From positions 51,207 through 115,206 of the IMG/VR virus record IMGVR_UViG_3300047476_001203: 64,000 nt of DNA, one strand, 5' to 3'. This DNA is from a virus. Under the pieces are notes generated by a model. That model ran no database searches. It saw nothing but the letters and a program-made list of their open reading frames with translations, and was not told where the DNA came from. A program made the translations under genes and the position numbers. Below, one piece after another: positions 4,917 to 33,566 of this stretch. The stretch's first letter is position 1; every line of letters begins with the position of its first letter.

Positions 4917-5690
4917 TTATTTAGGTAAATAATCGGGAAAATTGGATTTTACAAACTGAAGTAGTTTTTTGGAGTATTCTTCGTTGTGTTTTGGGGTTGC
5001 GTGTTTACCATCGATAGAGAATTCACGAAAATCTCCGTAGTCACCGTCAAACCGGTATTTGTCAGAATATTCGTTATCCATTAAGAAAGAACCGTTCCAT
5101 ATATATGGGATATTCCTATTCTCCAAATAATTTGTAATTAGGAGGTGATTTTTATACCAATTGATTAAATCATTCTCATCGTGAGTAATTCTCGCAATTG
5201 ATTTATACTCCTCCTTCCCTTCATTATCTTCCTTAAAATAACCCCAAGGAGTCATATGAAATGGTTCCAACTCTCCATTGTATCGATAGTATTCTTTACG
5301 GGATGGATAGGTATACATTAAGTTAACCAAATTAGGTCTTATCTTTTGAGTTAGGGTGATTACACATCTAGCAATGTAATCGTTACTACGTCCACCAAAC
5401 CCCAAATTTAAATCTACCCCGTTCTGTATCTGTCTTGAGAAATAATGAGGCCAAGTTTGGTTATCACTAACCCCGACACCTTCGGTATGGGAACAACCAA
5501 CTGACATTATTCTAAACCCATCCTTATATAATGAATCCCCCCTGAACCCCATTTCATTGTATGTGTAGGTATTAGTTTCGGAAATATCGGAACCTGATGT
5601 GTTGAATGTTTTATTTCTACGTTCATCTAATCTCCAAGAATGGTTACCCACCTCAAACCCCGAACTTGTCCAAAACTTCATTGATTTCAT
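4917..5690 (-). CDS. SGNH/GDSL hydrolase-like protein
   Basis: This 257-aa protein carries the SGNH blocks in order: GCSHTEGVG with the nucleophile Ser at about 67, GFGGRSND with Gly/Asn at 99-103, and DGKHATPKH with Asp227 and His230 as the acid/base pair. The SGNH family removes or transfers acyl groups, often O-acetyl on polysaccharides. It is the last gene of the leftward modification operon, next to the S74 fibre block, and overlaps the upstream gene by 4 nt (ATGA). It is one of four SGNH-like proteins in the window that share little outside these blocks. A glycan O-acyl esterase or transferase role is plausible but not shown. Confidence 0.75.
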   Translation of the reverse strand: MKSMKFWTSSGFEVGNHSWRLDERRNKTFNTSGSDISETNTYTYNEMGFRGDSLYKDGFRIMSVGCSHTEGVGVSDNQTWPHYFSRQIQNGVDLNLGFGGRSNDYIARCVITLTQKIRPNLVNLMYTYPSRKEYYRYNGELEPFHMTPWGYFKEDNEGKEEYKSIARITHDENDLINWYKNHLLITNYLENRNIPYIWNGSFLMDNEYSDKYRFDGDYGDFREFSIDGKHATPKHNEEYSKKLLQFVKSNFPDYLPK

Positions 5691-6385
5691 ATTAAATTCT
5701 TGTTTCTAATGAAATAACTAACTTTATTTTTATCCGCAATGTGACAAACCCCGTTCATTGATAATTCATCAAACGATGGGTTATGTTTATATAGGTAATT
5801 TATATCATCAAAGTATAAATTTAAATATTGTTGGTTTAAAGTTATTGGTGGTATCCCGTGGTAACGTTTGTTAAAAAAATCGTAATTTGACTCAATAACA
5901 TCTAAAACTTCGGAATATGCTTTATTCACATTTCTAAAGTTGCAAGACGCGATTATTGAGGTGTTATTCAATTCCGTATAATCTAACGAGGTATTTGAAT
6001 ATAGTTTATGTAGTTCGGTAAAATGTTCAATTTGTGAACTCGATAAAGGATGTTTGTAACATAAATTTAGTTTATCCTTTTTAATGATATCTAATAATTT
6101 TTTAATATCCTCAACTACTAAATCATTATCCAAATGTATAAAGGGGAATTGAATTTCGGATAGAACTTTTAACTTAGGATATGACCATATTGTTGGTTTT
6201 CGGTATCTATCGGGTAAGGATAACTCAACCCAATCATATATTAAGTCTAAATTTTTAAAATAATCAATATCGGAATATATTATAGGAACTTCACCTTGTA
6301 TATTCAAACTTTTAATTGAGTACTTTAAGTAAACTTCAGTAATCTCTTTAAGTCTGGTTGGTAGATATGTGAATACTATTCTCAC
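5687..6385 (-). CDS. Putative GT-A fold glycosyltransferase
   Basis: This 232-aa protein starts with FTYLPTR and has a central LDNDLVV resembling the D-x-D metal/nucleotide-sugar site of GT-A enzymes. The preceding pattern (YSD, then WSYPKL, then FPFIHLDNDL) resembles 16364-17299 and 20410-21435, so I treat these as one loose family. The start is GTG, sharing one base with the upstream stop (TAGTG). The protein ends in K-N-L-I, part of the C-terminal signature described in the findings. The substrate is unknown. Confidence 0.55.
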   Translation of the reverse strand: MRIVFTYLPTRLKEITEVYLKYSIKSLNIQGEVPIIYSDIDYFKNLDLIYDWVELSLPDRYRKPTIWSYPKLKVLSEIQFPFIHLDNDLVVEDIKKLLDIIKKDKLNLCYKHPLSSSQIEHFTELHKLYSNTSLDYTELNNTSIIASCNFRNVNKAYSEVLDVIESNYDFFNKRYHGIPPITLNQQYLNLYFDDINYLYKHNPSFDELSMNGVCHIADKNKVSYFIRNKNLI

Positions 6386-7629
6386 TATAATAATGGTCGT
6401 TTTGGTATGGGTTCGTTAGATATTGTGCCATTGACCATCATATCTAACATTGAATTTTCTTTATGTAATCTATTAATGAAAATATCGTGACATTCTTTAA
6501 TCCAATCCTTACATAGTTGATAATTGTTATCAAAATCACTAATGAACGTTCTTATAAAATCAGCAAATAGTTTTGCGTTTCCTTGGTATTGTTTGGACTC
6601 ATCATAAAAAGGATGTTTTCTAATCCCAACCAAATCCATAATACAATCGTATGGGTATGAATGGGTAGAAACGAAAGGAACGTTCGCTAAAATTAAACCT
6701 AACGACTTTTCACTTAAGTATTGACTGTGATAATCAGCGGAATTATGTGCCCAAGACTCATCACATATTTGAATTTTAGACATTGGTAAAATCCTCAAGA
6801 AATAGTCAAGACCTACTGTTATGTTTGTTAATATCCTTAAGTTCTGAAAATCAATCTCAGAATCGTAGTCATTTAAGTAAGCTCCTTCAATTTTTCTATA
6901 CTTTGGCTGTACGGAGTCCTTTTCAATTACATTTGTTTGAGAAACAAAGATGTCTTCAATTTGTGTTAATTCCTCAGCAATTTTAACTCTAAGTGGTTTG
7001 TGGGCTCTTACTGAATAACCCATTTTATATTTTGGTATGATTGCATCACTAATATTCTTATAATCATAAAACCATCTAATACTAATCATTTCATTCCATT
7101 GAAATATGATGTTAGTGAACGGGTTGTATAAATTTGGGTGTTTACTTAGTACAATCTTATTAGTAAAAACATTATCGGTCAATATAAAATGATTTGATAG
7201 TCTAAGAATTTGATTCTCAATTTCCTCAATTTGTATTGTTCCGTCCGTCTTTACTTTTGCATTATCATTCTTGATGAATATTTTTTCAGTTCTAAATAAA
7301 GATACTACCCAATTCTTTTTATCTTCAATAAGGTCTGCCATTCTTTCAATTATCGCAAAAGAATCCGAACCTCTATGTTCGGTACCATCAAAATTTGTAT
7401 CTTGACCTCTTTGTCTAAGTGCACCAAAGAAATCGATTATATGAATCCCTTCATCATCATTTATTTCAGGATTGAAGGATACCTCAAAGTTCTTTCCTCT
7501 GTATTCAAATGTAATATCCCTAATCGCACCATTTGTGTTATCCACTTCAACCATCTCTTTGTTCTTAACATTATGAAAGAACTTTTGAAATAACATATCG
7601 GTATAATAATGATGAACAAATATTTTCAT
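6385..7629 (-). CDS. Putative glycosyltransferase-like protein, SEK family (divergent)
   Basis: This 414-aa protein resembles in its C-terminal half the three other SEK-type proteins in the window (22165, 25647, 32283). It has YLSEKSLGLILANVPFV followed by a DLVGI and FYDE segment, where the others have SEK-x-x-KP and DESYD. In GT-B enzymes such as GT10 fucosyltransferases, an S/T-E-K motif sits in the nucleotide-sugar pocket, which is why I lean to glycosyltransferase. The N-terminal half is not recognisable. It ends in R-P-L-L, close to the local C-terminal signature. It could also be a non-catalytic member. Confidence 0.4.
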   Translation of the reverse strand: MKIFVHHYYTDMLFQKFFHNVKNKEMVEVDNTNGAIRDITFEYRGKNFEVSFNPEINDDEGIHIIDFFGALRQRGQDTNFDGTEHRGSDSFAIIERMADLIEDKKNWVVSLFRTEKIFIKNDNAKVKTDGTIQIEEIENQILRLSNHFILTDNVFTNKIVLSKHPNLYNPFTNIIFQWNEMISIRWFYDYKNISDAIIPKYKMGYSVRAHKPLRVKIAEELTQIEDIFVSQTNVIEKDSVQPKYRKIEGAYLNDYDSEIDFQNLRILTNITVGLDYFLRILPMSKIQICDESWAHNSADYHSQYLSEKSLGLILANVPFVSTHSYPYDCIMDLVGIRKHPFYDESKQYQGNAKLFADFIRTFISDFDNNYQLCKDWIKECHDIFINRLHKENSMLDMMVNGTISNEPIPKRPLL

Positions 7630-7632
7630 ATA

Positions 7633-8130
7633 TTAAATTAGTTTCTTAATTGTTTTATCTCTATCACCTTTTCTTAATCTGTCTTCACTATTCGAATCAA
7701 AAATATCCTCATAGTATGTTATTGACACGTTGAGTTTAGTTGATAATTCATTTAACTCCTCATTCCATTTCATAATGTCGTTATGGCACAGTTCAAAAAT
7801 ATCTGTAGGTGTCTCTTCATAAACGTAAGGTTTGTTTGAGTCATAATTTTTAATCTTTGAAAAGTATGTTTGATAGGCGTGTGACTCAGCACACTCTTTA
7901 ACGTTTCTTCTCGTTAACAATATCACCTCATCAAAGTTTTTTGATAGTTGTATATTATCGTTGTGATGACATATTATTGTTTTAACCACAACATTCTTTT
8001 CACCATTATACTCAACTCTACCAGTACCATCAAACGGTTCAAATAAAGGTTTTAAATTCTTCTCTTTCGCTATCTTGTGTAACAATGAAGTAGAACCCGT
8101 TCTTGGTAGGGAGATTATTAGTACACTCAT
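7633..8130 (-). CDS. Sulfotransferase-like protein (P-loop, PAPS type)
   Basis: This 165-aa protein opens with LIISLPRTGSTSLL, matching the 5'-phosphosulfate loop of PAPS-dependent sulfotransferases (PRTGSTS at 9-15). Residues about 70-84 (ILLTRRNVKECAESHA) match the 3'-phosphate-binding segment with Arg and Ser (R74/R75, S83). It is shorter than most family members (about 250-300 aa), so the acceptor-binding part is reduced. It overlaps the oxygenase upstream by 4 nt and ends in K-K-L-I. With the APS kinase at 15905 in the same gene run, sulfation of a glycan or protein is the likely job; the acceptor is unknown. Confidence 0.65.
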   Translation of the reverse strand: MSVLIISLPRTGSTSLLHKIAKEKNLKPLFEPFDGTGRVEYNGEKNVVVKTIICHHNDNIQLSKNFDEVILLTRRNVKECAESHAYQTYFSKIKNYDSNKPYVYEETPTDIFELCHNDIMKWNEELNELSTKLNVSITYYEDIFDSNSEDRLRKGDRDKTIKKLI

Positions 8131-8693
8131 AACAATGTTTTATTACTTTTAACTCTCGGATAATCAAAATCTGTTTCGGTCATCCAAACATTCAACGCAT
8201 ATCTTATTCCCTTAGTTACCGGCAGAACTCCGTGATATGTTTCAGAACCATTGAATGAAATACTATCACCCAATTTTAAATCACATAAAGTCAACCCACC
8301 CAAAGTTTCGAAGTTATATGGTGGGTTCTCGTCTTGGGTTAACGCAAATTGACCCCCTTCAAAATCGTCAGAAAGAACAATAACTGTAGTTAATTCACTT
8401 GACTTATCTTTATGTAGATTAAGATACCTACCATCATAGTATGATGTTAAACTAATGTTGAAATTTTTTAAATTAAATGTCGAATAATCAAACCATAATT
8501 TAAAATCTCCGTTTTTGTAGTTACTTGTTAATAAATTAATAATTCTTTCCTTAAAATTGGAATCGTACATTCTTCTACAATCCCATACTTCGGTTGGTTT
8601 ATATGAAAAGGGTTCACCGAACTCAAGACAAAAATCAATTATATCTTTAGCGGTTCCTCTATCACAAAAATTATTGTTTATGTTATAATTCAT
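8127..8693 (-). CDS. 2OG-Fe(II) oxygenase, prolyl-hydroxylase type
   Basis: This 188-aa protein has the Fe(II) facial triad H94-x-D96 and H154 plus the 2-oxoglutarate-binding R164, in the order and spacing of P4H-like enzymes, with EGGQF after the strand and GVRYALNVW-like GIRYALNVW at the end. Such enzymes hydroxylate amino acid side chains or small molecules using O2 and 2-oxoglutarate. It sits between an SGNH-like gene and a sulfotransferase gene with 4-nt overlaps on both sides, and ends in K-T-L-L. The substrate is unknown. Confidence 0.85.
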   Translation of the reverse strand: MNYNINNNFCDRGTAKDIIDFCLEFGEPFSYKPTEVWDCRRMYDSNFKERIINLLTSNYKNGDFKLWFDYSTFNLKNFNISLTSYYDGRYLNLHKDKSSELTTVIVLSDDFEGGQFALTQDENPPYNFETLGGLTLCDLKLGDSISFNGSETYHGVLPVTKGIRYALNVWMTETDFDYPRVKSNKTLL

Positions 8694-9511
8694 AGTAGAT
8701 ATGAATTTTTCTTTTTATTATGGATTAGTAAATTATCTTCATTTATGAATTTATACAATTCCTCAGCAATTAATTTATATCCGTTGTTACTTGGGTGTTT
8801 ACCTGCGGTTGTGTCCACCCATCGATTATTATCCTCCCAAACATCTTTTCTATTTGTGTCGATTAACAAATTAGCCATTGTTTTATCTCTATAACCCCAA
8901 TATCTTTCACCCTCAATCAAATGAGTTTTATCAACCAGAACATCGATGTTTTTGTTAATCATAGTATCAAACGCATCGCAAAAAACATATCTAATCCCCA
9001 ACTCCTTAAACATAAATTGTAAGTGTAGAATGTAGTTTTGGTTAACTATGTCATAGTACGTGTCATTAAACAAATTACTAATGTAGTAATCTCTAAAATT
9101 CTTTTCCGCCCTATTATAGTTTACATTATCCCCACTAACACCGTCGAAAATATATTTGAAAAGATGTTGTTTACTCTTATATCGTTGACCCCAAATATGA
9201 AAACTATTCTCGTTTGGAAAAAATGGTAGTTGGTCTCTTAATGATGAGGACCACATAATAACAACAAAATCATCTTGAGTGATGATTTCATTTTTTAATT
9301 GATAACAAACTGTATTGAATATTGAGTTGTTCGAAAAAGCCCCAACTCCGTTATTTTTAACTTCACATTCAAGTAGTTCTGATAAGTGTTTTGGCCAACA
9401 ATATTTTTGTCTTATGTTAGTTCTTTCCTCAGGAATTTCTGTTGTTAATTCCTCATCAACATTACCCCCAACACCCTCAGTCCAACTATCTCCATATGTG
9501 AATAACTTCAT
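8690..9511 (-). CDS. SGNH/GDSL hydrolase-like protein
   Basis: This 273-aa protein has GDSWTEGVG near the N-terminus (Ser at 9), a block-II-like NNGVGAFSNNS around 53-63, and GKHPSNNGYKLIAEEL near the C-terminus supplying the His. The D of a DxxH pair is not obvious next to it. It is longer than the 4917 protein and carries a Tyr/Asn-rich insert. Overlap with the next gene is ATGA. It ends in Y-L-L after a Lys run. An esterase or acyltransferase acting on a glycan is the likely class. Confidence 0.7.
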   Translation of the reverse strand: MKLFTYGDSWTEGVGGNVDEELTTEIPEERTNIRQKYCWPKHLSELLECEVKNNGVGAFSNNSIFNTVCYQLKNEIITQDDFVVIMWSSSLRDQLPFFPNENSFHIWGQRYKSKQHLFKYIFDGVSGDNVNYNRAEKNFRDYYISNLFNDTYYDIVNQNYILHLQFMFKELGIRYVFCDAFDTMINKNIDVLVDKTHLIEGERYWGYRDKTMANLLIDTNRKDVWEDNNRWVDTTAGKHPSNNGYKLIAEELYKFINEDNLLIHNKKKNSYLL

Positions 9512-9522
9512 AAAACATTATC

Positions 9523-9666
9523 TTATTCCCCCAAGTGTTTAACCTTAATAGCTGTTACAACCGCTTGAAACGCAGTTGCTACTTTTGTTTTTAATTCACT
9601 TGAAATGGGTGCAACAATTGCTTTAATTGTTTGTGCAGGTCTTTCTATTCTTTCTTTTTGTGCCAT
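9523..9666 (-). CDS. Small 47-aa protein of unknown function
   Basis: An ATG at 9666 opens a 47-codon frame that fills the gap between the ATP-grasp/Hint gene and the SGNH gene. The protein starts MAQKERIERPAQTIKAIV and is predicted as one amphipathic helix rich in Ala/Lys/Val. It lies 12 nt after the stop of the upstream gene and 11 nt before the next start. There are no Cys residues and no membrane segment. Its position directly after the protein with the Cys-rich tail makes it a possible partner, but there is no direct evidence. Confidence 0.55.
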   Translation of the reverse strand: MAQKERIERPAQTIKAIVAPISSELKTKVATAFQAVVTAIKVKHLGE

Positions 9667-9678
9667 AATATTTTAATT

Positions 9679-11169
9679 TTATATTTTCGGTACGGGTACA
9701 TTTGAACAACCAGGACAGTACCAGCTATTACACCAGTGTCCACAATAGTTCCAAGGACACCAACAAGTATTGTGCATCACACTAAAATCACCATCACCAA
9801 TATCAACTAAGAATAAATCTGAAGATTCAAAGTCCAAACTATAAATGGTTTTTTGTGCGTGTTCCATTTCCAATCCTGTAATCTCTACAGTTGTTAATAG
9901 ATTAGTGTTAGTGTCAGTGATTACTAATTTGTCACCAACGTACATTTTATTAACTCTCTCAAATCTTGTTGCTGTTGAACCTGATTCTTCAATATAATAT
10001 GTTGCTGAAGGTGCATCAGTCCAAGTTCTACCGTCAGATAATGTTATTCTAATGTAAATTGTATCAACCTCGGCTGATACCATAGCATTTAATGTGGTTC
10101 CGGTTTGTATTAAAGTTAAGTTATCTTGAGCAACAGTACTATCCCAACCAAACGTGTCAATTTTATTTTGTTCAAATTTAGCTGCGTGGTTATCATTTAA
10201 ATCGACATAATCTATTGAACGAACATAATCCCCTAATTGTATCGTATCAACATCCAACAATGTTCCATCGTATTTTAAAATAACACTATCATCATCTGTG
10301 TGATAATCGTTCTTTGCGTAGTTACCCAATTCTTTAGTAATATACTTGTATCTACTTTTCTGATTTAACTTGTTGGTTCCTGTAACAAACTCATCATCTG
10401 CAAATGTCAACGGTAATATTGTTGATTGGGTGTACCCACCCATATGAATAACATCCAATTCAGGTCCGTAAATAATATCAATACTTCTTATGATTGAGTA
10501 TCTACCTTGAACTAAATTATCTTCAGAAAATATAAATTCTTGAGCCAAGTGGTTAGGTTCAAGATTAGTCTTTAAATCTGATAAATCAGTACTTCCTGTA
10601 ATTCTGTATATTGCAGGATAATCCATTGGGTTATAAGCAGGATTTCTTGGTTTTATTAGTACGTTTGGATTTGATGTTGTGGTATAATCAACATCATTTA
10701 AAGTATCTAAATTTAACGACGTGGATGTGAAATATGTGTTTGGTACATATGTCGACCCACTCATTAATGAGAAAAATTCAAATTTATCGGCACAATATGT
10801 CTCATCAACCAACGCAGTGGTATCGAAGGATTGTCTTAATATAAACTTATGAACATCATCTTCAATATAGGGAACGGTAACTGAACCGACCGGAACAATA
10901 AATTCAGTAAATGACATATTATTCTCCTGACACTTTTCTTCTAATATTCTCTTAAATCTATACTGTTCAGTTAAGGGTTTATATGCGTCTCCTTCAGTCC
11001 ATATTAAGTAAAATTCAGTGATGTTGTTACTAACTAACATCGTGAATAATGAGGTATAATCAAGCAAATCCGCACCCTCATTATAGATTGTGGTGTTTGT
11101 GTTTATTTCCAAAAACTTCACCGAGTCTCCCGTTTGTAGTAAGTCACTACCAATTATAGTTGCTTTCAT
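9679..11169 (-). CDS. ATP-grasp-like / Hint-like protein with Cys/Trp-rich tail
   Basis: This 496-aa protein appears to have three parts. Residues about 1-285 look like an ATP-grasp ligase: DKFEFFSLM near 128-136, VPNTYF, NVLIKPR at 169-175 and LAQEFI at 208-213 follow the usual order of ATP- and Lys-bearing motifs. Residues about 290-467 look like a Hint (intein/hedgehog) domain: DSVILKYDGT, IQLGDYVRSID, SLDFESSDLFLVD, ending VMHN at 464-467. The first-residue Cys of an active Hint is not seen; His290 is at about that place. The last 29 residues hold six Cys (469, 471, 476, 480, 485, 488) and five Trp. HN-T at 466-468 is the place where an intein C-terminus would cleave. Promoter-like boxes lie upstream. 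Both domain calls are from motif order only. Confidence 0.55.
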   Translation of the reverse strand: MKATIIGSDLLQTGDSVKFLEINTNTTIYNEGADLLDYTSLFTMLVSNNITEFYLIWTEGDAYKPLTEQYRFKRILEEKCQENNMSFTEFIVPVGSVTVPYIEDDVHKFILRQSFDTTALVDETYCADKFEFFSLMSGSTYVPNTYFTSTSLNLDTLNDVDYTTTSNPNVLIKPRNPAYNPMDYPAIYRITGSTDLSDLKTNLEPNHLAQEFIFSEDNLVQGRYSIIRSIDIIYGPELDVIHMGGYTQSTILPLTFADDEFVTGTNKLNQKSRYKYITKELGNYAKNDYHTDDDSVILKYDGTLLDVDTIQLGDYVRSIDYVDLNDNHAAKFEQNKIDTFGWDSTVAQDNLTLIQTGTTLNAMVSAEVDTIYIRITLSDGRTWTDAPSATYYIEESGSTATRFERVNKMYVGDKLVITDTNTNLLTTVEITGLEMEHAQKTIYSLDFESSDLFLVDIGDGDFSVMHNTCWCPWNYCGHWCNSWYCPGCSNVPVPKI

Positions 11170-11187
11170 AAATTTTGTTTCCTTACA

Positions 11188-11230
11188 ATAAATATATCTA
11201 TAAAAATATTATTAGAAAAGGATATTTATA
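11188..11230 (-). promoter_or_regulatory. Candidate promoter region before the ATP-grasp/Hint gene
   Basis: The 91-nt gap upstream of 11169 is almost pure A/T. On the sense strand it contains TATAAATA (11223-11230), identical to the T4 late box, and ATATTTAT (11188-11195), one base off the octamer found before fibre genes. An AAGGAA stretch lies about 10 nt before the ATG, one of the few Shine-Dalgarno-like sites in the window. Confidence 0.35.
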
Positions 11231-11260
11231 ATGTTTATTTTTTTATTATATATGTATATA

Positions 11261-11548
11261 TTAAATTAAAGTACTCTTATTCTTATTTTTAACAGGTGTT
11301 ATGTAATCTGAATCCACTTCTTCCCAATAACCCTTAGTACAAGGATTGAAATTTTTAGAGAATACTTTTTTATTTAGAGGACACCCACAATCACCACAGT
11401 AAGCAGACCACTTCACGCCCCTCAAAACTTCTTTTCTGTAATCACAACCCAAACAAACATTTAATCTTTTTTCTGCCAATTCCTCTTGTTTAGGTGTTGG
11501 GTTAAATGATGTTTTCCAAGCCTCAAAAATTTCTTTATAATCTATCAT
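11261..11548 (-). CDS. Small Cys-cluster (zinc-ribbon-like) protein
   Basis: This 95-aa protein contains CLGC at 32-35, then YCGDCGC at about 51-57 and a further Cys at about 70, a layout fitting one zinc or metal site. The N-terminal 30 residues are helical (IFEAWKTSF, PKQEELAEKRL). Similar small CxxC proteins are common in large phages, with no known function. It overlaps the sulfotransferase-like gene upstream by 4 nt. It ends in K-S-T-L-I, one of the clearest examples of the local C-terminal signature, and here no next start codon overlaps the end. Confidence 0.65.
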   Translation of the reverse strand: MIDYKEIFEAWKTSFNPTPKQEELAEKRLNVCLGCDYRKEVLRGVKWSAYCGDCGCPLNKKVFSKNFNPCTKGYWEEVDSDYITPVKNKNKSTLI

Positions 11549-12336
11549 ATTAAAGTCTTGGTTAATTTCGGTAGGTCGTAATAATCATAAATACTGTTGT
11601 ACTTTTTTATAAAATCATCATCTAAAGTTATTACACATTCCATATGTTTACTCGAATTAACCGAATGAAGTTCAAAAGGTTTTTCTAAAATATTCGACAC
11701 CCATTCTTCCAATTTATTCAATTCATTGAAGTCAAACCAAATTATTGTTTGGTCATTATTTGTCCAATTAGATAATGGAGTTAATAAGATATCAATCATA
11801 TTAACCGCGTACCCTTTGGTATTTGATTTAAAATATTCTTCTTCCGACTTTTTAAATTTTGATGTTACTGAAATATCTATTTTTTCGTCAATCAACTTTA
11901 AATCCATTAAGAACTCACATATCTTGTCCCATCTTTGTTTTTTAGTTGCAACATCTTCTTTTGTAAAAAAGAATAACTCATTCAACGATAGTTTGGAGAA
12001 TTTTTTATAAATTTTATGAAACCCCATTCTTTGTAAATCAAATAAAACGTGTTTATATAATGAATAAAATCTCTCGTGTCTTTGTCTTTTAACCGCAATA
12101 ATCGGATAGTTTCTACCAAACTTACTCTGTAAATCAATTAAAGATTCGTGTCCGTGATAGATATAGTTCATCAAATCTTTTTTATCCACCGATTTAAAAT
12201 CAATATCTGAATTCGCTAACTCCCACTCCCCATTATGTGTTTGAATTTTAACATCATTAACCAAACAAGAATAATGAAAGGCAGTTGACGCACATCTCGG
12301 TAAACTCAAATAAAAAAACTTATTTTCAACTAACAT
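11545..12336 (-). CDS. Sulfotransferase-like protein, second copy
   Basis: This 263-aa protein starts FFYLSLPRCASTAF, matching the 5'-phosphosulfate loop (P13-R-C-A-S17), and has IIAVKRQRHERFYSLYKH at 79-96, matching the 3'-phosphate segment (R84, S92). Its length is normal for family members such as glycan sulfotransferases. The enzyme class moves a sulfo group from PAPS to hydroxyl or amino groups. The start overlaps the upstream oxygenase stop (TAATG) and the protein ends in T-K-T-L-I. With 7633-8130 and the APS kinase at 15905 it forms a candidate sulfation set. Confidence 0.65.
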   Translation of the reverse strand: MLVENKFFYLSLPRCASTAFHYSCLVNDVKIQTHNGEWELANSDIDFKSVDKKDLMNYIYHGHESLIDLQSKFGRNYPIIAVKRQRHERFYSLYKHVLFDLQRMGFHKIYKKFSKLSLNELFFFTKEDVATKKQRWDKICEFLMDLKLIDEKIDISVTSKFKKSEEEYFKSNTKGYAVNMIDILLTPLSNWTNNDQTIIWFDFNELNKLEEWVSNILEKPFELHSVNSSKHMECVITLDDDFIKKYNSIYDYYDLPKLTKTLI

Positions 12337-12905
12337 TAGATTAATGATTTTTTAATTAGTTTGGAGGGCCATACGTTTATTGAATATCTAACCCCACTTG
12401 TTATTTCTTTAACAGAGTGTACAATATTTGAATCGAAGATGAATACGCTACCTTCTTTTTTAGGTACTGAATGTTCAATTTCATTTACAATATACTTTAC
12501 ATCACCATCCTCATATTGGTCGTTCAATTGAATTATATAGGTTATTGTTGCCCCATTTACAATTTCGTGACTGTCTGGATGCCAATCTAAAAAATCTCCC
12601 TCACCGTATCTATTAAATGAATAATTGTGTATTCGATTATACGTGATTCCATTAAACGGATTCAATTCATTAGATAATGTGATGATTTTATCAGTTAAAC
12701 TTTTCAATATTGGTATACCCAACATTTCATTAGTAAAATAAGTACCCATTCGTTTATTACCCTCGTACGCAACATTCTCAGTCATTACTTTTCCATTGAT
12801 AACAAGTGATGACTTCATTTGAATTAACCCAATAGATTCACCTAACTTTATCAAAGACTTACACTCATCAGGAGTTAAAAAATTTTCAATGTACCTCGTA
12901 AACAT
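12336..12905 (-). CDS. 2OG-Fe(II) oxygenase, prolyl-hydroxylase type
   Basis: This 189-aa protein has the triad H109-x-D111 and H163 and the 2OG-binding R173, with GVRYSINVWP closing the core as in P4H-like enzymes. It is related to the 8127 and 14803 proteins but clearly diverged. It is packed between another oxygenase (1 nt gap) and a sulfotransferase (1 nt overlap). The C-terminus is K-K-S-L-I. Substrate unknown; hydroxylation of a peptide, sugar or lipid are all possible. Confidence 0.85.
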   Translation of the reverse strand: MFTRYIENFLTPDECKSLIKLGESIGLIQMKSSLVINGKVMTENVAYEGNKRMGTYFTNEMLGIPILKSLTDKIITLSNELNPFNGITYNRIHNYSFNRYGEGDFLDWHPDSHEIVNGATITYIIQLNDQYEDGDVKYIVNEIEHSVPKKEGSVFIFDSNIVHSVKEITSGVRYSINVWPSKLIKKSLI

Positions 12906-12906
12906 T

Positions 12907-13560
12907 TTATATTATAGATTTTTCTTTTTTTATATAATCAAACCCAACATTACCAGCAATTACAATTCTATCGACGGTTGAGTTGGGTGCGTTATTTGGA
13001 CTATGTGGCATATCCGCCTCCATAATAATCAAATCATCTTCCTCGGGTCTAATCCAATATTCTTTATTATTCTTTCCTCTAAAATAAAGTACCCCATCCT
13101 CACCATTCATAACATCAGGCATTTGAACATAATAAACATAAGTGTAATGAGGTATAAAAGATTTCATTTCTTTGTTTATGTCTGTGTGTACGTGAAATTT
13201 ATCAACCCCTTTTAATTCCTCGTGTTTGAATTGTATTTGTACAGGGTTAGTTGAACGGACAACATTAACCCAAGCGTCGGTATTAATTTTATTATATACC
13301 ACGTTCCTTTCTTTATATAAATCCTTACAGTGGTCAATTCCTATTTGAATGATTTCATCCATTTTAGTTTCAATATTAATTTCACCTGTAAAATTTATAT
13401 TGTTGTTCCATTCTTTTTTATACCCAAACCCATCAGTCTTAATATCTGGTTGGGATTCGATAACAAAATTGGCCTCCTTCAACAATGTATCTTTATCGGA
13501 CAACTTATTCAATTTAATTTTCCAAATATATGTGGAATCATCAAAATATAATTTCTCCAT
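12907..13560 (-). CDS. 2OG-Fe(II) oxygenase, putative 2OG-Fe_Oxy family
   Basis: This 217-aa protein has H125-x-D127, distal H186 within MPHSPNNAP, and R198, the full iron and 2OG set. The N-terminal 100 residues (helical, with NTDAWVNVVR before the core) are typical of the larger putative 2OG-Fe(II) oxygenases common in marine phages. It lies between the halogenase (1 nt gap) and another oxygenase. The C-terminus is K-S-I-I. Nothing indicates the substrate. Confidence 0.8.
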   Translation of the reverse strand: MEKLYFDDSTYIWKIKLNKLSDKDTLLKEANFVIESQPDIKTDGFGYKKEWNNNINFTGEINIETKMDEIIQIGIDHCKDLYKERNVVYNKINTDAWVNVVRSTNPVQIQFKHEELKGVDKFHVHTDINKEMKSFIPHYTYVYYVQMPDVMNGEDGVLYFRGKNNKEYWIRPEEDDLIIMEADMPHSPNNAPNSTVDRIVIAGNVGFDYIKKEKSII

Positions 13561-13561
13561 A

Positions 13562-14806
13562 TTATATCAATTCTTTTTTAAGTACTTTTCTGTTTTTTCT
13601 AAAAATGGTTAAATAATTGTTTACAAAAAAAGTAAGCTCATTTGGTGTAATATCTTCCAATTCGAACGATGATAATAATTCCATATCACTTCTAACTGTG
13701 ATTGAGTTATTTTTGTCTAATATCTTTTTTAGTTTTGGAGGTATCGGCATTGATGTACAGTCTTTCCAAAATTGGTTGTCATCTCTCTCACACAAATAAT
13801 GATATCTTATGAAATTTAGATTTTGTTCATTTATTTGGTAGCACCATTTATTATACCTCTCGACATATTGTTCATCAAAGTTAAAATCAATTAACTTCTT
13901 TAACTGCATTATGGTTGACATCAAAGATGTTGCTTCTAAAGGTTCAATAAACCCATAAGATAGTCCTATTGATATACTATTCCCAATCCAACTTCTTTTA
14001 TGTGTACCGGGGTTAAAGTCAAATACTTTTTGTAACGTTACTTCGTGACCTAATCGTTTTTCAATCTCTTTCTTGGCATCTTCAACAGTTATGTATTTGT
14101 CATTGAAAACATAACCACAACCCCATCTATGTTGTAATGGAATTTTAAACATCCATCCACAATCCATTGATATCATTTCGGTATATGTCTTATCGTTTAG
14201 TTGGTATTTGTTTTCTTGTGGTAAAAAGAACGCTAACGCCTTATTCATCATCAAGTAATCAGTATATCCAATCCACTCTTCTTTATGTACACCATCAATG
14301 ATAATTTTAGCGAACCCACTACAATCAAATACAAAATCTAAATCTATGGTTCTACCATCTTTCAATTGTAATTCTGAAATAATACTATTTTCATTTTTTA
14401 TTTCACTTACCTCACCATCAACACAGTTAACTCCTCTATTAATTGCAATTTCTTTAAAGTATTGGGCAACTAATCTCGCGTCAAAATGGTAAGCATATGA
14501 TTTGTTAATTTCATTCGGTCCGTCACCAAAGAAGAGGTGTTTTGATAACTCATTATTACCCGTCCAATTATATAAGTGTAATCCACCTTTTACTGTTGAT
14601 TTAGTTTTCTCGAAAAATTCATTCTGATTAATATCTAACAATGAAAGCATTTTACCGAAGTTGGAAGTTCCTCCTTCGCCAGCCCCTAATATCCCAATTT
14701 TAGAACTCTCCACTAATGTGACATTAGTATCCTTCCAAAATTTATTTACAACCAAAGAGGTTAACCAACCAGCAGTACCTCCTCCAATTATTACAACTTT
14801 TTTCAT
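13562..14806 (-). CDS. Flavin-dependent halogenase, tryptophan-halogenase type
   Basis: This 414-aa protein has the FAD motif GGGTAGW at 8-14 and AGEGGTSNFG at 42-51. The conserved Lys that carries hypohalite is at 73 (TVKGGLHLYNW). The W-x-W-x-I-P signature appears as W218-M-F220-K-I-P223, so the second Trp is Phe. The IEPLEATS segment near 287-294 supplies the conserved Glu, with Ala where bacterial enzymes usually have Ser. Length is shorter than PrnA/RebH (about 530). Cyanophages encode related enzymes (VirX1, reported as an iodinating halogenase). It needs reduced flavin, presumably from the host. It overlaps the upstream oxygenase by ATGA and ends in K-K-E-L-I. Halide and substrate cannot be read from sequence. 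Confidence 0.85.
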   Translation of the reverse strand: MKKVVIIGGGTAGWLTSLVVNKFWKDTNVTLVESSKIGILGAGEGGTSNFGKMLSLLDINQNEFFEKTKSTVKGGLHLYNWTGNNELSKHLFFGDGPNEINKSYAYHFDARLVAQYFKEIAINRGVNCVDGEVSEIKNENSIISELQLKDGRTIDLDFVFDCSGFAKIIIDGVHKEEWIGYTDYLMMNKALAFFLPQENKYQLNDKTYTEMISMDCGWMFKIPLQHRWGCGYVFNDKYITVEDAKKEIEKRLGHEVTLQKVFDFNPGTHKRSWIGNSISIGLSYGFIEPLEATSLMSTIMQLKKLIDFNFDEQYVERYNKWCYQINEQNLNFIRYHYLCERDDNQFWKDCTSMPIPPKLKKILDKNNSITVRSDMELLSSFELEDITPNELTFFVNNYLTIFRKNRKVLKKELI

Positions 14807-15351
14807 ATTAGATTTTGTTTATTTGTGGTGGTCTTAACAATCGACACCCAATTTACTAATGAGTACCTTGTACCCGATTCAACAGGAGTAACTCTATGTC
14901 TTAAACCTGATTCAAAAACATATAATGTACCTGCTCTTTTTTGTGAAGGTACAACGTCACCTTTCGAATCTTTTATTTCTAAAAATCCACCTTCGTAGTT
15001 ATCATTTAAAAGAATAACTGTTGACACAATTCTTTCTTTAAAAGTATTTGAATCTCTATCGGTGTGCCAACCATAATACTCACCAACTTTATACTCTGTA
15101 AATTGAAAAGAGCCGAGACCTGTGACCTCGGCTCCGTTCAATTTAAAAGATTCTCTTAATATTTCTTTTAATCTGATATTAATATCACCCAAATCATCAA
15201 TCCAAGATACTGAAGATTTTCTTTCGTTCGGATTTCCGTTCGCAACTCCCGCAGTTTCTAATGTTAATTCTTTGTGACACTTGTTTAACACATAATGACA
15301 TTCATCATTTGATAAAAAGTTTTCAAATATGTAGAATTCATTATTTGTCAT
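14803..15351 (-). CDS. 2OG-Fe(II) oxygenase, PKHD type
   Basis: This 182-aa protein has H96-x-D98, H152 and R162. The layout YYGWHTD, TVILLNDNYEGG, VPSQKRAGTLYVF, HRVTPVESGTRYS is that of PKHD-type hydroxylases. It is translationally coupled to the halogenase downstream (ATGA overlap) and overlaps the DUF2061 gene upstream by 11 nt. Halogenase next to oxygenase is also known from cyanophages. The C-terminus is K-Q-N-L-I. Confidence 0.85.
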   Translation of the reverse strand: MTNNEFYIFENFLSNDECHYVLNKCHKELTLETAGVANGNPNERKSSVSWIDDLGDINIRLKEILRESFKLNGAEVTGLGSFQFTEYKVGEYYGWHTDRDSNTFKERIVSTVILLNDNYEGGFLEIKDSKGDVVPSQKRAGTLYVFESGLRHRVTPVESGTRYSLVNWVSIVKTTTNKQNLI

Positions 15352-15562
15352 TTTCCTTTCTTAATCCAAATTTTATCCACTTATACCATATCCTTTCGTG
15401 AATATAATATTGAATTGGTTTATATACAAGTTCAGCTATACCAAATGCCGCTCCGACTTTAATATCACTACTAACCCACCACATTATTACAAATCCAATT
15501 AATGTACTTATAACTCTGTAGGATATAGTTTTAGCTATATGTCGTTTACGTTCTACTACCAT
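15341..15562 (-). CDS. DUF2061 small membrane protein
   Basis: This 73-aa protein starts with a basic segment (RKRHIAKTISYR) followed by two short hydrophobic stretches (about 16-31 and 34-47) and YKPIQYYIHERIWYKW, which is the usual pattern of DUF2061. The family has no proven role but is often found beside sulfate-activation genes in bacteria. Here it overlaps the nucleotidyltransferase gene by 17 nt, in the same cluster as the APS kinase. Probably sits in the inner membrane. Confidence 0.75.
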   Translation of the reverse strand: MVVERKRHIAKTISYRVISTLIGFVIMWWVSSDIKVGAAFGIAELVYKPIQYYIHERIWYKWIKFGLRKENDK

Positions 15563-15908
15563 CGTTGTTTATTTCTCCATTACGAATTTTAGTACCACTT
15601 ATAACCGCAACATCTGCTGGTGGTTCGTGATAGATTACTTCATACCCAACACCTCTACCATAATTCACCGACTCAATGTCAGGAATAATGGATAATAATA
15701 ACTTATCAAAATTGTCATTAAAGAAAGGTTCTTTAATTAATTCTTCAAACACTTCTCGTGCCGTTTTGGGATTGTTTTCATCAACTTCAACATCTCTAAT
15801 TGCAACCCATACATTTTTACCTTGGTCTAATTGTTGTCTAATTAACCATTCGTGTCCTTTGTGCCAATTCTGCCATCTTCCGATGTACAGTGCATACTTT
15901 TTACTCAT
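15546..15908 (-). CDS. Mini nucleotidyltransferase (HxGH superfamily)
   Basis: This 120-aa protein has the nucleotidyl-transfer signature H17-K-G-H20 in GRWQNWHKGHEWL and ISGTKIR at about 103-109, corresponding to the ISxTxxR ATP-binding motif. It belongs to the adenylyl-/cytidylyltransferase superfamily, which includes ATP sulfurylase, NMN adenylyltransferase and TagD. Its size is close to TagD-like enzymes and far below ATP sulfurylase (about 380 aa). Position directly upstream-coupled to APS kinase (4-nt overlap) suggests a part in making an activated sulfate or sugar-phosphate, but the actual substrate is open. Confidence 0.65.
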   Translation of the reverse strand: MSKKYALYIGRWQNWHKGHEWLIRQQLDQGKNVWVAIRDVEVDENNPKTAREVFEELIKEPFFNDNFDKLLLSIIPDIESVNYGRGVGYEVIYHEPPADVAVISGTKIRNGEINNDGSRT

Positions 15909-16339
15909 AAAAATAATTTATTGATTAATTCCGTGTACGATACCATTAATTCGGTATCAGTTGTGTTAATTGATATATAATTTTCGGTTGGGGGTTCGTA
16001 GTCCTTAACGTGAAAGTTTTCCCTACCTCTAATCTCAGTTGTATGAACGTATATTTCAATTGCACCGGATTTACCTTTAAGGTCATCCCTTAAATCTTTA
16101 TATGGTGACACTAACGACGCCACCACATTGTATCCTTTTTCATTTAGAAAGTGTGCAATATCCATAGCCTTTTGAATATTTGCACGTCTTCCATTTTCAG
16201 AATAATCTTTATTTTTAAAGATGTCTCTTAAATCGTCACCATCAATGTGAATAGTGTTTCCAACATTTAAATACTCAACTAACTTTTTAGCTAAGGTTGT
16301 TTTACCTGCACCAGGTTGTCCTGTAAACCAATAAATCAT
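15905..16339 (-). CDS. cysC: Adenylylsulfate kinase (CysC-like), shortened
   Basis: This 144-aa protein has the Walker A GQPGAGKTT at 7-15, IDGDDLRD, the NGRRANI segment, and SLVSPYKDLRD around 96-106, all characteristic of APS kinase, which turns APS plus ATP into PAPS. It is shorter than bacterial CysC (about 200 aa): the usual RDPKGLYKKA loop after the central strand seems missing, though DYEPP remains. The same compact form is used by some marine phages and bacteria. It overlaps the nucleotidyltransferase by ATGA. PAPS made here could feed the two sulfotransferase-like proteins at 7633 and 11545. Confidence 0.8.
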   Translation of the reverse strand: MIYWFTGQPGAGKTTLAKKLVEYLNVGNTIHIDGDDLRDIFKNKDYSENGRRANIQKAMDIAHFLNEKGYNVVASLVSPYKDLRDDLKGKSGAIEIYVHTTEIRGRENFHVKDYEPPTENYISINTTDTELMVSYTELINKLFL

Positions 16340-26930: not shown

Positions 26931-28703
26931 ATGAAAAAAATTTTAATTACAGGTTGTTCAGGTTTAGTCGGTGTTCATTTGGTTAAGGAATCGATTATGA
27001 GAAACCATTTAGTTATTGGTGTTGACAAAGTTAAATCGGAACATTTACCAGAATCTGATAGGTTTAAGTTTTATGAATTAGACCTTATGAATGATGAGAA
27101 CATTACAAAATTATTTGAGGAGGAAAAACCAGATGCGGTATTCAACTGCTTCGGTGTTAAGGGTTCACCATTAAAAGCTAAAACTCAACCGGTGGACTTT
27201 CTATATCCATCACAAAAAATCAATACCGAAATAATTCACCAATGTGCAAAAAATAACGTTTGGTTAGTTTTTGTAAGTTCTGTTGGTGTTTACTCTCCCG
27301 CTGAAAAATTCTTAGAGACTGATGTATGGAAGACATTACCTTCTGAAAATGATTGGTTTCCTGCTTGGTCAAAAAGAATTGGTGAGTTATTGGTAGGTGC
27401 ATATAGAAAACAATATGGTTATAAAAAATGGACCATTGTTAGACCCGCGAACATATTTGGTGAGTATGATGATTGGAGTGGTAATGGTACTGTAATCTCA
27501 AGTATAATTAAGAAAGTATATGAAGCCGAGGATGGTGGTGAGATTGAAGCTTGGGGAGATGGTACACCTGTTAGAGATTTCATTTATGCCAATGACGTTG
27601 CAGTTGCTATTTTAAATTGTTACAAGAATAGAGTGAATGACGTAGTTAATTTAGGTTCTGGTGAAACAATAACAATTCAATCAATGATTGAGGAGGTTAT
27701 TAAAATTAGTGGTAAAAATTTAACCATTAAATGGGATAAGTCAAAACCAAACGGAGATATGCGTAGACAAATGGATACCAGTCTTCAGAACGGTTATCAA
27801 CTATTACCTTTTGTAGGATTTAAGGAAGCACTTAGAAGAACATATAGTTACTATGAAAAACACTATGGTACACTTGAATTGAATATGGATATTGAAGAGT
27901 ATCTTGAAAAGGGATTTTATGTTGGTAAGGTTCAAGAATTTATAAAAAAACACGAGTGGGATGATTATCTAAAAAGATTAGAAAATATTAGAAAAAAGTC
28001 TGAAGATAAGAAAGGTTATGGATATCGTTTTGAATTTAGAGTGCCGACGGACTACTCCGAAGAAGGATTTGATTATGTTAGGACAATTCCCGCAGATGAG
28101 ATAGAAGAAAGAGAAAAATTCGCAGCGGAAAAAGGTTGGGACATTGTTCAACGTTGGTGGGAGTTGAGAGATAGTGAAGGAATTTTCAATGATGATATAT
28201 TCTATTTTAGAGATAAGGTATCAAGATTTGTTCATAAGATATATCCTGAAGTAAAAGAATGGAATATTGGGCACAACGATGGGTTAACAATTTATGAAAA
28301 TGGTGATTTTATTGAACCTCATATTGATGGTCAAAATCCTGATAGATATTGTGTGGTATTAATTTACTTATCAGACGAAAAAGACTATATTGATGGTGGA
28401 GGAAAATTAATATTACAAGATAAAGGGTATTATGATGAAGTACTTCCAATTCATTTAAATTTTGCAATGTTAGATTTCTCAAAAAATAATTCAAATCACG
28501 CAGTTGAAATGGTTAAGAATGATTTTAGAAGATTTACATACATTAATTTCATTCAAGTTAGGCCGTATTCCCCACCTGCAAGATATAATGGTACTGAAAA
28601 AATAGAAGAAGTGTGGGAACCTGATAGTGACGTATGTTATGGTAAGCCATTTGAGATTCCACAAACTAATGATGTAAAAAAAGTTAAAAAAAGTTTAATA
28701 TGA
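26931..28703 (+). CDS. Fusion: SDR sugar epimerase-like domain plus 2OG-Fe(II) oxygenase
   Basis: This 590-aa protein combines two domains. Residues 1-310 form an extended SDR with GCSGLVGVH at 8-16 and VRPANIFGEYD, but the place of the catalytic Tyr holds Pro144 (PAWSK148), so normal redox catalysis is doubtful. Residues about 370-545 form a 2OG-Fe(II) oxygenase with H464-x-D466, H523 and an Arg at 533/534. A charged helix (about 325-365) links them. I know of no common family with this fusion. The protein ends K-K-S-L-I, the same C-terminal signature as in the minus-strand oxygenases. A sugar-nucleotide oxidation or hydroxylation role is likely. Confidence 0.8.
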   Translation: MKKILITGCSGLVGVHLVKESIMRNHLVIGVDKVKSEHLPESDRFKFYELDLMNDENITKLFEEEKPDAVFNCFGVKGSPLKAKTQPVDFLYPSQKINTEIIHQCAKNNVWLVFVSSVGVYSPAEKFLETDVWKTLPSENDWFPAWSKRIGELLVGAYRKQYGYKKWTIVRPANIFGEYDDWSGNGTVISSIIKKVYEAEDGGEIEAWGDGTPVRDFIYANDVAVAILNCYKNRVNDVVNLGSGETITIQSMIEEVIKISGKNLTIKWDKSKPNGDMRRQMDTSLQNGYQLLPFVGFKEALRRTYSYYEKHYGTLELNMDIEEYLEKGFYVGKVQEFIKKHEWDDYLKRLENIRKKSEDKKGYGYRFEFRVPTDYSEEGFDYVRTIPADEIEEREKFAAEKGWDIVQRWWELRDSEGIFNDDIFYFRDKVSRFVHKIYPEVKEWNIGHNDGLTIYENGDFIEPHIDGQNPDRYCVVLIYLSDEKDYIDGGGKLILQDKGYYDEVLPIHLNFAMLDFSKNNSNHAVEMVKNDFRRFTYINFIQVRPYSPPARYNGTEKIEEVWEPDSDVCYGKPFEIPQTNDVKKVKKSLI

Positions 28704-31881: not shown

Positions 31882-32286
31882 TTACCAACTAATTTCCCAA
31901 TCTTTAAATTCCGCAGCTAAACAATCAATTTTGTAATCTTTTCTACCACCAACAATTTCTTGTATTTTGTTTTTAGCGGTATTTCTAATACCATTCAATC
32001 CGTGTGTTAGTTCTAACTGATTACCTTCTTTGATTCCTTTACGATAGTTAGATTCGTTGTGCCAAATATGTAAATTCATCTGAGATAAAACAACAATAGC
32101 TCTAATAGTTTCGGCGGTAATTTTCCCATCATTGTCATCAAGTAGTAATTGAATGTCGTGTAAAATGTCACTAATTTCCTGACCATATTCTTCTTTGTGC
32201 TCCGTAATAAAAACTTCTTTTAATTGTGATATACTCAACCTATCAACTAATTCAGCTAATGTTGGTAAATATTTTCTTTCACTCAT
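31882..32286 (-). CDS. Conserved phage protein of unknown function
   Basis: This 134-aa, mostly helical protein starts MSERKYLPTLAELVDRLSISQLKE and includes EHKEEYGQEISDILHDI and LSQMNLHIWHNES. I recall similar proteins from T4-like cyanophages, always of unknown role. No metal or nucleotide motif is seen. It overlaps the upstream glycosyltransferase-like gene by 4 nt, so it is part of the modification operon. Confidence 0.7.
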   Translation of the reverse strand: MSERKYLPTLAELVDRLSISQLKEVFITEHKEEYGQEISDILHDIQLLLDDNDGKITAETIRAIVVLSQMNLHIWHNESNYRKGIKEGNQLELTHGLNGIRNTAKNKIQEIVGGRKDYKIDCLAAEFKDWEISW

Positions 32287-33566
32287 ATTAAATTCTGTTT
32301 GATGTTAAAATATTGATTATGATACTTTTGAAATTCAACAAATGAATCAGGTAATCGATATAATTTATTTATTAGATTTGAATGATTGTGTTCAACAACT
32401 TCTCTCATTGACTTGAACCATTCCATTTTATTTTTAACTGAAATTGTCTTTTTAACACTTTCGATAATTGCTTTCATTCTCTCGTGTGTTGGTAAACTAT
32501 CATAGTCTTCGTCTAAGAATTCAGAGAATGTTTTATATCCCATTTTCTTCATCATTGCGAGACTATCTTTATTACCCATCACCATCCAAGGATGTCTACA
32601 AGCAATTGGTTTATAAAGTTTCTCACTTAAGAACATTGTTTCATCACTATCACCACAATGCGCTTCACTTACAACACTAACCCAACTATCTAAACAAATC
32701 TGTTCATTTAATCTCCTAATGTAGTAGTTGTCGTCAAATTCATTATTGGGTTTCTCATATATCAATAATGGTAATGGTTCATATATTTTATCAACAACCT
32801 CATCCGACATATATTCACCTTCAAATGGGTACTGATGTTTAGGAAATTGATTCATACTAACCAAACCATCTTTTAGAATATCATTATCAAACATATAACG
32901 ATAAAACCAAACTCTGTGAGGTCTTATTCTTTTATTCAAACAAGAAAAACTTTTAATATTCTTTTTGTTCTTTTTCTTGTATTCTAAATGAGTATCGAAA
33001 TCTGGTAGTTTTCCTTCCCTATCAAAATGGTAACAGGTCATCCCGACATCTAATTCAAAATGCGCGTATGGGATTACTTTTAACTTTTCTTTTATTTTAT
33101 TTTCAATGCACCACTTATCATAAATCTCATCGGCAATCATATTACCGGTGACATATACAATACTTGATGGTGGTACTTTATACTTCTTACAATGTGTATG
33201 GAAAAAATCCCATAACCATCTTGATTGGTATCCTTCGAAACTTTGGTCTAATAAAAGTAATGCTTTCTTGTTTCTTAAATCACTCAAATATTTTGGGTTA
33301 AGATATTCAAACAAACTCTTAACCCTTGATGTATATCCTGTCCAATCTTCAGGACTGTGATTAACCGCAGCAGGAATAACATAGTTTTCTACATCGTTAT
33401 CCAATTTCAAAAATTGTAAAAAGGATTCTTTATGTGTAAACCCAAAATACATATTCGTTGCATTAATCAACGGAGCATATGTAAATCTCTTTATACCTGA
33501 TGGATTTACATCAGGACAACTTGTAAAGTTGTGTAAGTTTTCAATATCTTCAAAAACTAATTTCAT
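32283..33566 (-). CDS. Putative glycosyltransferase-like protein, SEK family
   Basis: This 427-aa protein has SFSCLNKRIRPHRVWFYR, VSVVSEAH, FLSEKLYKPIACRHPWMVMG and GYKTFSEFLDEDYDS, in the same order as its paralogs at 22165 and 25647. It also has a Rossmann-like KKALLLLDQSFEG near 95-107 and SSIVYVTGNMIADEIYD, close to the VYYVCGNLLSEQI of 22165. Ends K-Q-N-L-I. Coupled to the radical SAM gene upstream by a 1-nt overlap (TAATG). Confidence 0.5.
   Translation of the reverse strand: MKLVFEDIENLHNFTSCPDVNPSGIKRFTYAPLINATNMYFGFTHKESFLQFLKLDNDVENYVIPAAVNHSPEDWTGYTSRVKSLFEYLNPKYLSDLRNKKALLLLDQSFEGYQSRWLWDFFHTHCKKYKVPPSSIVYVTGNMIADEIYDKWCIENKIKEKLKVIPYAHFELDVGMTCYHFDREGKLPDFDTHLEYKKKNKKNIKSFSCLNKRIRPHRVWFYRYMFDNDILKDGLVSMNQFPKHQYPFEGEYMSDEVVDKIYEPLPLLIYEKPNNEFDDNYYIRRLNEQICLDSWVSVVSEAHCGDSDETMFLSEKLYKPIACRHPWMVMGNKDSLAMMKKMGYKTFSEFLDEDYDSLPTHERMKAIIESVKKTISVKNKMEWFKSMREVVEHNHSNLINKLYRLPDSFVEFQKYHNQYFNIKQNLI

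Follow-up and report, generated by a model that had tools for sequence, protein, structure and literature searches.

The stretch of viral DNA analyzed here, referred to as the window, comprises bases 51,207-115,206 (64,000 nucleotides) of the 115,206-base virus record IMGVR_UViG_3300047476_001203; the remainder of the record was also read, and no tRNA or tmRNA genes were found in either part. The window contains a block of genes on the minus strand (5687-15351) whose products, enzymes of unrelated folds among them, share a short C-terminal ending, which we call the tag, together with an untagged protein of 496 amino acids encoded at 9679-11169, which we call F1. For most counts, a protein was scored as tagged when its last two residues were [LI][LI]. 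An earlier, sequence-only reading had counted 11 tagged genes among 13 in this block. All 11 endings are present, but only 12 open reading frames (ORFs) of at least 60 amino acids lie wholly inside 5687-15351, and the thirteenth, the untagged gene at 15341-15562, overlaps its edge.

At coordinates below F1, the tagged genes encode a DUF6734-like protein matched below threshold (5687-6385, ending in RNKNLI; 14/14 relatives in its family are tagged), a protein of unknown function that the sequence-only reading took to be glycosyltransferase-like (6385-7629, PKRPLL; 17/17), a protein judged sulfotransferase-like by eye from its SLPRTGST loop and without a Pfam match (7633-8130, IKKLI; 57/57), a 2-oxoglutarate (2OG)-Fe(II) oxygenase (8127-8693, SNKTLL), and an SGNH-like DUF6071 protein (8690-9511, KNSYLL; 42/48). 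F1, which ends in VPVPKI, combines a probable ATP-grasp domain of the glutathione synthase type, a Hint domain, and a 29-residue tail with six Cys that follows the sequence MHN. Above it are the genes for a 95-residue Cys-cluster protein (11261-11548, NKSTLI; 47/52), whose family holds position -1 relative to F1, a second protein that is sulfotransferase-like by a weak fold match (11545-12336, TKTLI; 64/64), a 2OG-Fe(II) oxygenase (12336-12905, KKSLI; 119/124), a 2OG-Fe(II) oxygenase-like protein (12907-13560, EKSII; 45/52), a tryptophan halogenase (13562-14806, KKELI; 43/43), whose homolog in pelagiphage HTVC008M is untagged, and a further 2OG-Fe(II) oxygenase (14803-15351, KQNLI).

The ending is concentrated in this block. 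Record-wide, 20/164 ORFs end in [LI][LI], distributed as 11/13 in the block versus 9/151 elsewhere (Fisher p = 2.9e-10), and about 3.5 per 144 genes would be expected from composition. Equal frequencies inside and outside the block, which the sequence-only reading had named as a result that would overturn its proposal, were thus not what we found, and a phage-wide habit of ending proteins in this way is ruled out by these counts together with the seven-record comparison described below. ORF calling also bore out the three endings reported outside the block, those of an epimerase fused to a 2OG oxygenase (26931-28703, plus strand, KKSLI), a protein of unknown function (32283-33566, minus strand, KQNLI) and a radical S-adenosylmethionine (SAM) protein (33566-35020, minus strand, KPNII), most homologs of which end without the tag.

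That the ending is a by-product, at the DNA level, of constraints imposed by the start site of the next gene or by an overlap with it had been thought a poor explanation because the codons differ from gene to gene. They do differ, and this explanation now seems hardly tenable. It can draw on the codon of the final Ile, which is ATA in 0.78 of cases versus 0.45 in bulk, a bias that ATGA overlaps favor and can explain. However, the codons of the penultimate Leu (TTA 0.66, TTG 0.17, CTA 0.11) and of the Lys at position -4 (AAA 0.83) follow bulk usage; of the genes separated from the next start by over 60 nt, 36/40 keep the tag; translation of the same DNA in the two alternative frames gives only 28/509 and 3/509 tagged ends; and closely spaced genes of this genome end in [LI][LI] in 9/87 cases outside the block versus 10/11 inside it. 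These codon, spacing and frame counts refute the start-site explanation as the main cause, and selection of the tag at the protein level is strongly supported.

A scan with the halogenase yielded 16 viral loci, at which the homologs retain the ending, as do extra genes that are absent from the window. A subsequent scan with F1 gave an F1-bearing set of 90 loci. Here, at positions -5 to -1 and +1 to +4 relative to F1, 74-100% of the genes on its strand have an [LI][LI] ending, and beyond about nine places the rate is at the background of about 5%, with some upstream positions staying at 0.2-0.3. Clustering of the neighbors of F1 yielded more than 20 unrelated tagged families, which agrees with the earlier claim that proteins of unrelated fold share one ending and rules out inheritance of the tag from one ancestral gene; F1 itself is tagged in 0/64 distinct sequences. 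The motif consists of a Lys/Asn-rich linker followed by K-[KSTN]-[LI]-[IL]-COOH. With families weighted, the last residue is Ile in 76% and Leu in 18%, position -2 is Leu in 68% and Ile in 28% (96% together), position -3 is Lys, Ser, Thr or Asn, and position -4 is Lys in 48%. The residues that precede the motif are in most families less conserved than the last two. Many of the exceptions scored as untagged are near-misses (KSVI, KTVI, KTLM, KSLV), homologs without the tag end earlier than tagged ones, and the last residues of one tagged protein (11545-12336) are of low confidence in an AlphaFold2 model. The tag is well shown to exist as a common C-terminal motif in a group of uncultured tailed phages, carried beyond chance by unrelated proteins of the same pathway.

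The distribution of the tag follows F1. In long stretches of seven records, Lys-type tags end 18/144, 11/197 and 14/243 proteins in the three records with F1, versus 1/174, 0/82, 3/92 and 0/97 in the four without it. Homologs of tagged proteins carry the tag in 30/46 cases where the genome has F1 and in 1/33 where it does not, the sequenced HTVC008M being among the latter genomes (p = 4e-9); it should be noted that these counts come from records that may be incomplete and are not independent of phylogeny, so that p-values are indicative only. Homologs lacking the ending had been named in advance as evidence against the tag; what we see is that they keep it in phages with F1 and lack it in phages without F1. 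Two further clades of F1, about 28% identical to the window type, are also accompanied by tagged proteins (146/206 and 46/66, counted over the six places downstream of F1). As a separate observation, the radical SAM protein at 33566-35020 occurs in at least 598 viral stretches and is tagged in some only; the F1 profile was searched for in 80 records reached via this protein, and because an untagged copy is present in some records with F1, the tagged form is ruled out as a strict marker of F1. An ORF at L228:9094-9633 (G024) ends in KKTNKSLI beside structural genes, and F1 was not found in that record.

The AlphaFold2 model of F1 has a mean predicted local distance difference test (pLDDT) score of 84. 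Its C-terminal half has a Hint fold, matching Hint, intein and hedgehog structures (PDB 1at0, 6tmm, 2lwy; E about 1e-7), in agreement with a profile match to intein, and its N-terminal half matches eukaryotic-type glutathione synthase (1m0w; E 3e-3, probability 0.99). In a set of 46 diverse members, Asn467 is invariant, and all other invariant residues fall within the ATP-grasp half; these include E21, N23 and K173, which may correspond to the E-x-N and Lys of glutathione-synthase-type ATP-grasp enzymes. The window-type Hint domain, inspected by eye in alignments, is without the N-terminal Cys and the block-B His and keeps the His-Asn. Splicing is therefore not expected, but cleavage after Asn is a plausible reaction, since the His-Asn is retained. 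The tail directly after His-Asn has 25-33 residues, with six Cys in nearly all of the 57 distinct tails (typically MHNxCWCPWxxCGxxC), so that a conserved body is followed by a variable Cys-rich end, as a conserved leader is followed by a variable core in ribosomally synthesized and post-translationally modified peptides (RiPPs). In one of the further clades (clade B, L250-L301), the tails, of about 30-55 residues, are Cys-rich and hypervariable and directly follow the EHN junction of the Hint domain; they may represent an extensive natural library of peptide cores. Relatives of F1 in clade C have one to three additional Hint domains in tandem, with the Cys intact and VHNK or VHNKV at the end (L191:2115-4847, L192:2433-5171, L200:4479-6341). 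Neither 50,697 sequenced phage records nor, in one scan, GTDB genomes yielded a match to F1.

The tagged proteins comprise 2OG-Fe(II) oxygenases, tryptophan halogenase, DUF6071/SGNH-like, radical SAM and SPASM proteins, and also FkbM and CmcI-like methyltransferases, SET-domain proteins and glycosyltransferases. Two families are sulfotransferase-like, with a motif resembling the loop that binds 3'-phosphoadenosine 5'-phosphosulfate (PAPS), one sub-threshold Pfam match (E 0.0034) and weak fold matches, which for the protein at 11545-12336 are weak PDB matches only. Proteins or peptides are the usual targets of SET and SPASM enzymes and of FkbM methyltransferases, which favors a protein substrate, and the tagged partners look like protein modifiers. 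Next to the block, also on the minus strand, three untagged genes encode the small membrane protein of the DUF2061 family (15341-15562), a nucleotidyltransferase-like protein recognized by eye without a Pfam match (15546-15908), and an adenosine 5'-phosphosulfate (APS) kinase-like protein (15905-16339). This possible cassette (15341-16339) may supply PAPS for the sulfotransferases.

Docking to a scaffold or the virion, sorting, and degradation had all been offered as functions of the tag; docking fits best, since the tag follows one gene, that of the untagged ATP-grasp-Hint protein, and the alternatives of sorting to the virion and of degradation are less probable. We favor, if only by a little, the view that the tag is a C-terminal docking motif that recruits protein-modifying enzymes to one assembly, likely on F1, in a RiPP-like system. 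The probably flexible Lys/Asn-rich linker ending in K-[KSTN]-[LI]-[IL]-COOH would bring the enzymes to F1 or an F1-based complex. On this view F1 would act as a precursor of very large size, in which ATP-grasp and Hint domains precede a C-terminal peptide rich in Cys. That peptide, or F1 itself, would be the target of the tagged hydroxylases, halogenase, sulfotransferases, methyltransferases and radical SAM enzymes, and the Hint domain would release the peptide afterwards. We infer in this scheme the reading of the tag by F1 or its complex, the tail as substrate, the cleavage and the role of the product. A more far-reaching picture, which we hold only tentatively, is that of an interchangeable peptide-modification system of tailed phages, addressed by the tag, in which gaining K-x-[LI]-[LI] at the C-terminus would bring any modifying enzyme to a self-processing ATP-grasp-Hint precursor; the hypervariable, Cys-rich end of this precursor would become a heavily modified peptide, released or displayed during infection.

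Several observations weigh against docking on F1 as the role of the tag. In a sister clade (L321-L347), an F1-like protein (for example, L323:6524-12046 and L336:7479-13319) stands beside 2OG oxygenases and a sulfotransferase-like gene, with the tag in 4/123; L315, a locus grouped with this clade, is a truncated member of clade C. The tag is thus not tied to every ATP-grasp/Hint protein, and is not required for the partnership between F1 and the enzymes, which is either older than the tag or separable from it. In addition, some tagged genes lie far from F1, some phages with F1 hold an untagged copy of the radical SAM protein, one 109-kb fragment without F1 has three tag-like endings, and most distant members of F1 have short tails without Cys. 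The oxygenases of the sister clade mostly end in G-[DN]-x-F-[KR], which perhaps reflects only paralogy.

Other readings of the tag have to be set against docking on F1. In this phage and its relatives, the block has a large tail-fibre-like gene as its neighbor, and one relative of F1 (L198:5331-7262) has a weak C-terminal match to Peptidase_S74, a domain typical of tail fibres; this would suit a sorting tag that packs the enzymes in, or attaches them to, the virion or an assembly associated with the tail, to reach the next host or to act on tail proteins. We consider such sorting unlikely, as the enzymes need PAPS, 2-oxoglutarate and flavin, which are found in the cytoplasm, and tailed phages lacking F1 have similar enzymes without the tag. 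The tag could instead bind another protein, either a host protein or a conserved phage neighbor such as the DUF2061 protein, with F1 just another client. The DUF2061 protein has no tag of its own, accompanies the tag in the genomes compared, and shows far stronger conservation than F1, remaining 82-88% identical even beside the distant clades whose F1 is at about 28%. However, it sits with the APS kinase genes and may serve sulfate metabolism, and the tag distribution is centered on F1, which makes a receptor other than F1 quite improbable.

Glutathione synthase extends a peptide carboxylate, and the N-terminal half of F1, where its most conserved residues are located, resembles this enzyme. 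The free C-terminus might thus be itself a substrate, the Leu-Ile carboxylate being activated by the ATP-grasp domain and ligated to something, or the enzymes being joined covalently to a carrier. A dozen enzymes as substrates would be unusual, however, and the sister clade also has the LNTN-type N-terminus with no tag, so that we regard this option as distinctly improbable. Finally, the tag might be a degron that shortens the lifetime of the enzymes in the host, which would recall RRKKAI, the degron of MuA read by ClpX, with its basic residues and terminal Ile (PMC8138137). The phage tag does not conform to an RRKKAI-like pattern, as position -2 is Leu or Ile and not Ala. It is also linked to one gene neighborhood and missing from homologs in phages that lack F1, which would not be expected of a general degron; degradation is therefore very unlikely to be its function.

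2OG oxygenases, halogenases and sulfotransferases are frequent in marine and freshwater phages, and a common address tag would tie many such enzymes to one precursor, making what they are for directly testable. If docking on F1 is verified, the tag would represent a plug-in code for docking, about four to six residues long, in a phage-encoded peptide-modification system that is absent, as judged by F1, from the sequenced phage records mentioned above. No description of a phage cluster or tag of this kind emerged from literature searches.

Several known systems resemble parts of what we describe. One C-terminal tag sends unrelated enzymes to one place in the case of the peroxisomal SKL signal and of encapsulin cargo tags; the phage tag has a different sequence, and no shell or compartment turned up, although no search was aimed at one. 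In nonribosomal peptide synthetases (NRPSs) and polyketide synthases, C-terminal short linear motifs that dock to β-hairpin domains are short, disordered, located on oxidases and carrier proteins, and gather the enzymes of one pathway; in NRPS docking, the precedent for the reading favored here, only the last five residues of the motif bind the partner (PMC9113145). The phage system differs in having neither carrier proteins nor megasynthases, in the sequence of the motif, in the presence of one tag on more than 20 families, and in that no partner domain resembling the β-hairpin docking domain was recognized in it. The fold and the C-terminal His-Asn of F1 are those of Hint, bacterial intein-like and hedgehog autoprocessing domains; the window type departs from these in the two lost residues and in the variable Cys-rich peptide that follows. 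RiPP clusters, including those of graspetides with their ATP-grasp ligases, likewise have a precursor-like gene with a variable Cys-rich C-terminus, tailoring enzymes and ATP-grasp (PMC8939145), but here the "leader" is a 467-residue ATP-grasp-Hint protein, the ATP-grasp appears to be of the glutathione synthase type, the enzymes are tagged, and the cluster is found in phages. Docking through C-terminal linear motifs and RiPP clusters are thus already known kinds; what the literature searched did not contain is a single C-terminal tag shared by many phage enzymes, in changing combinations, that surround an ATP-grasp-Hint precursor.

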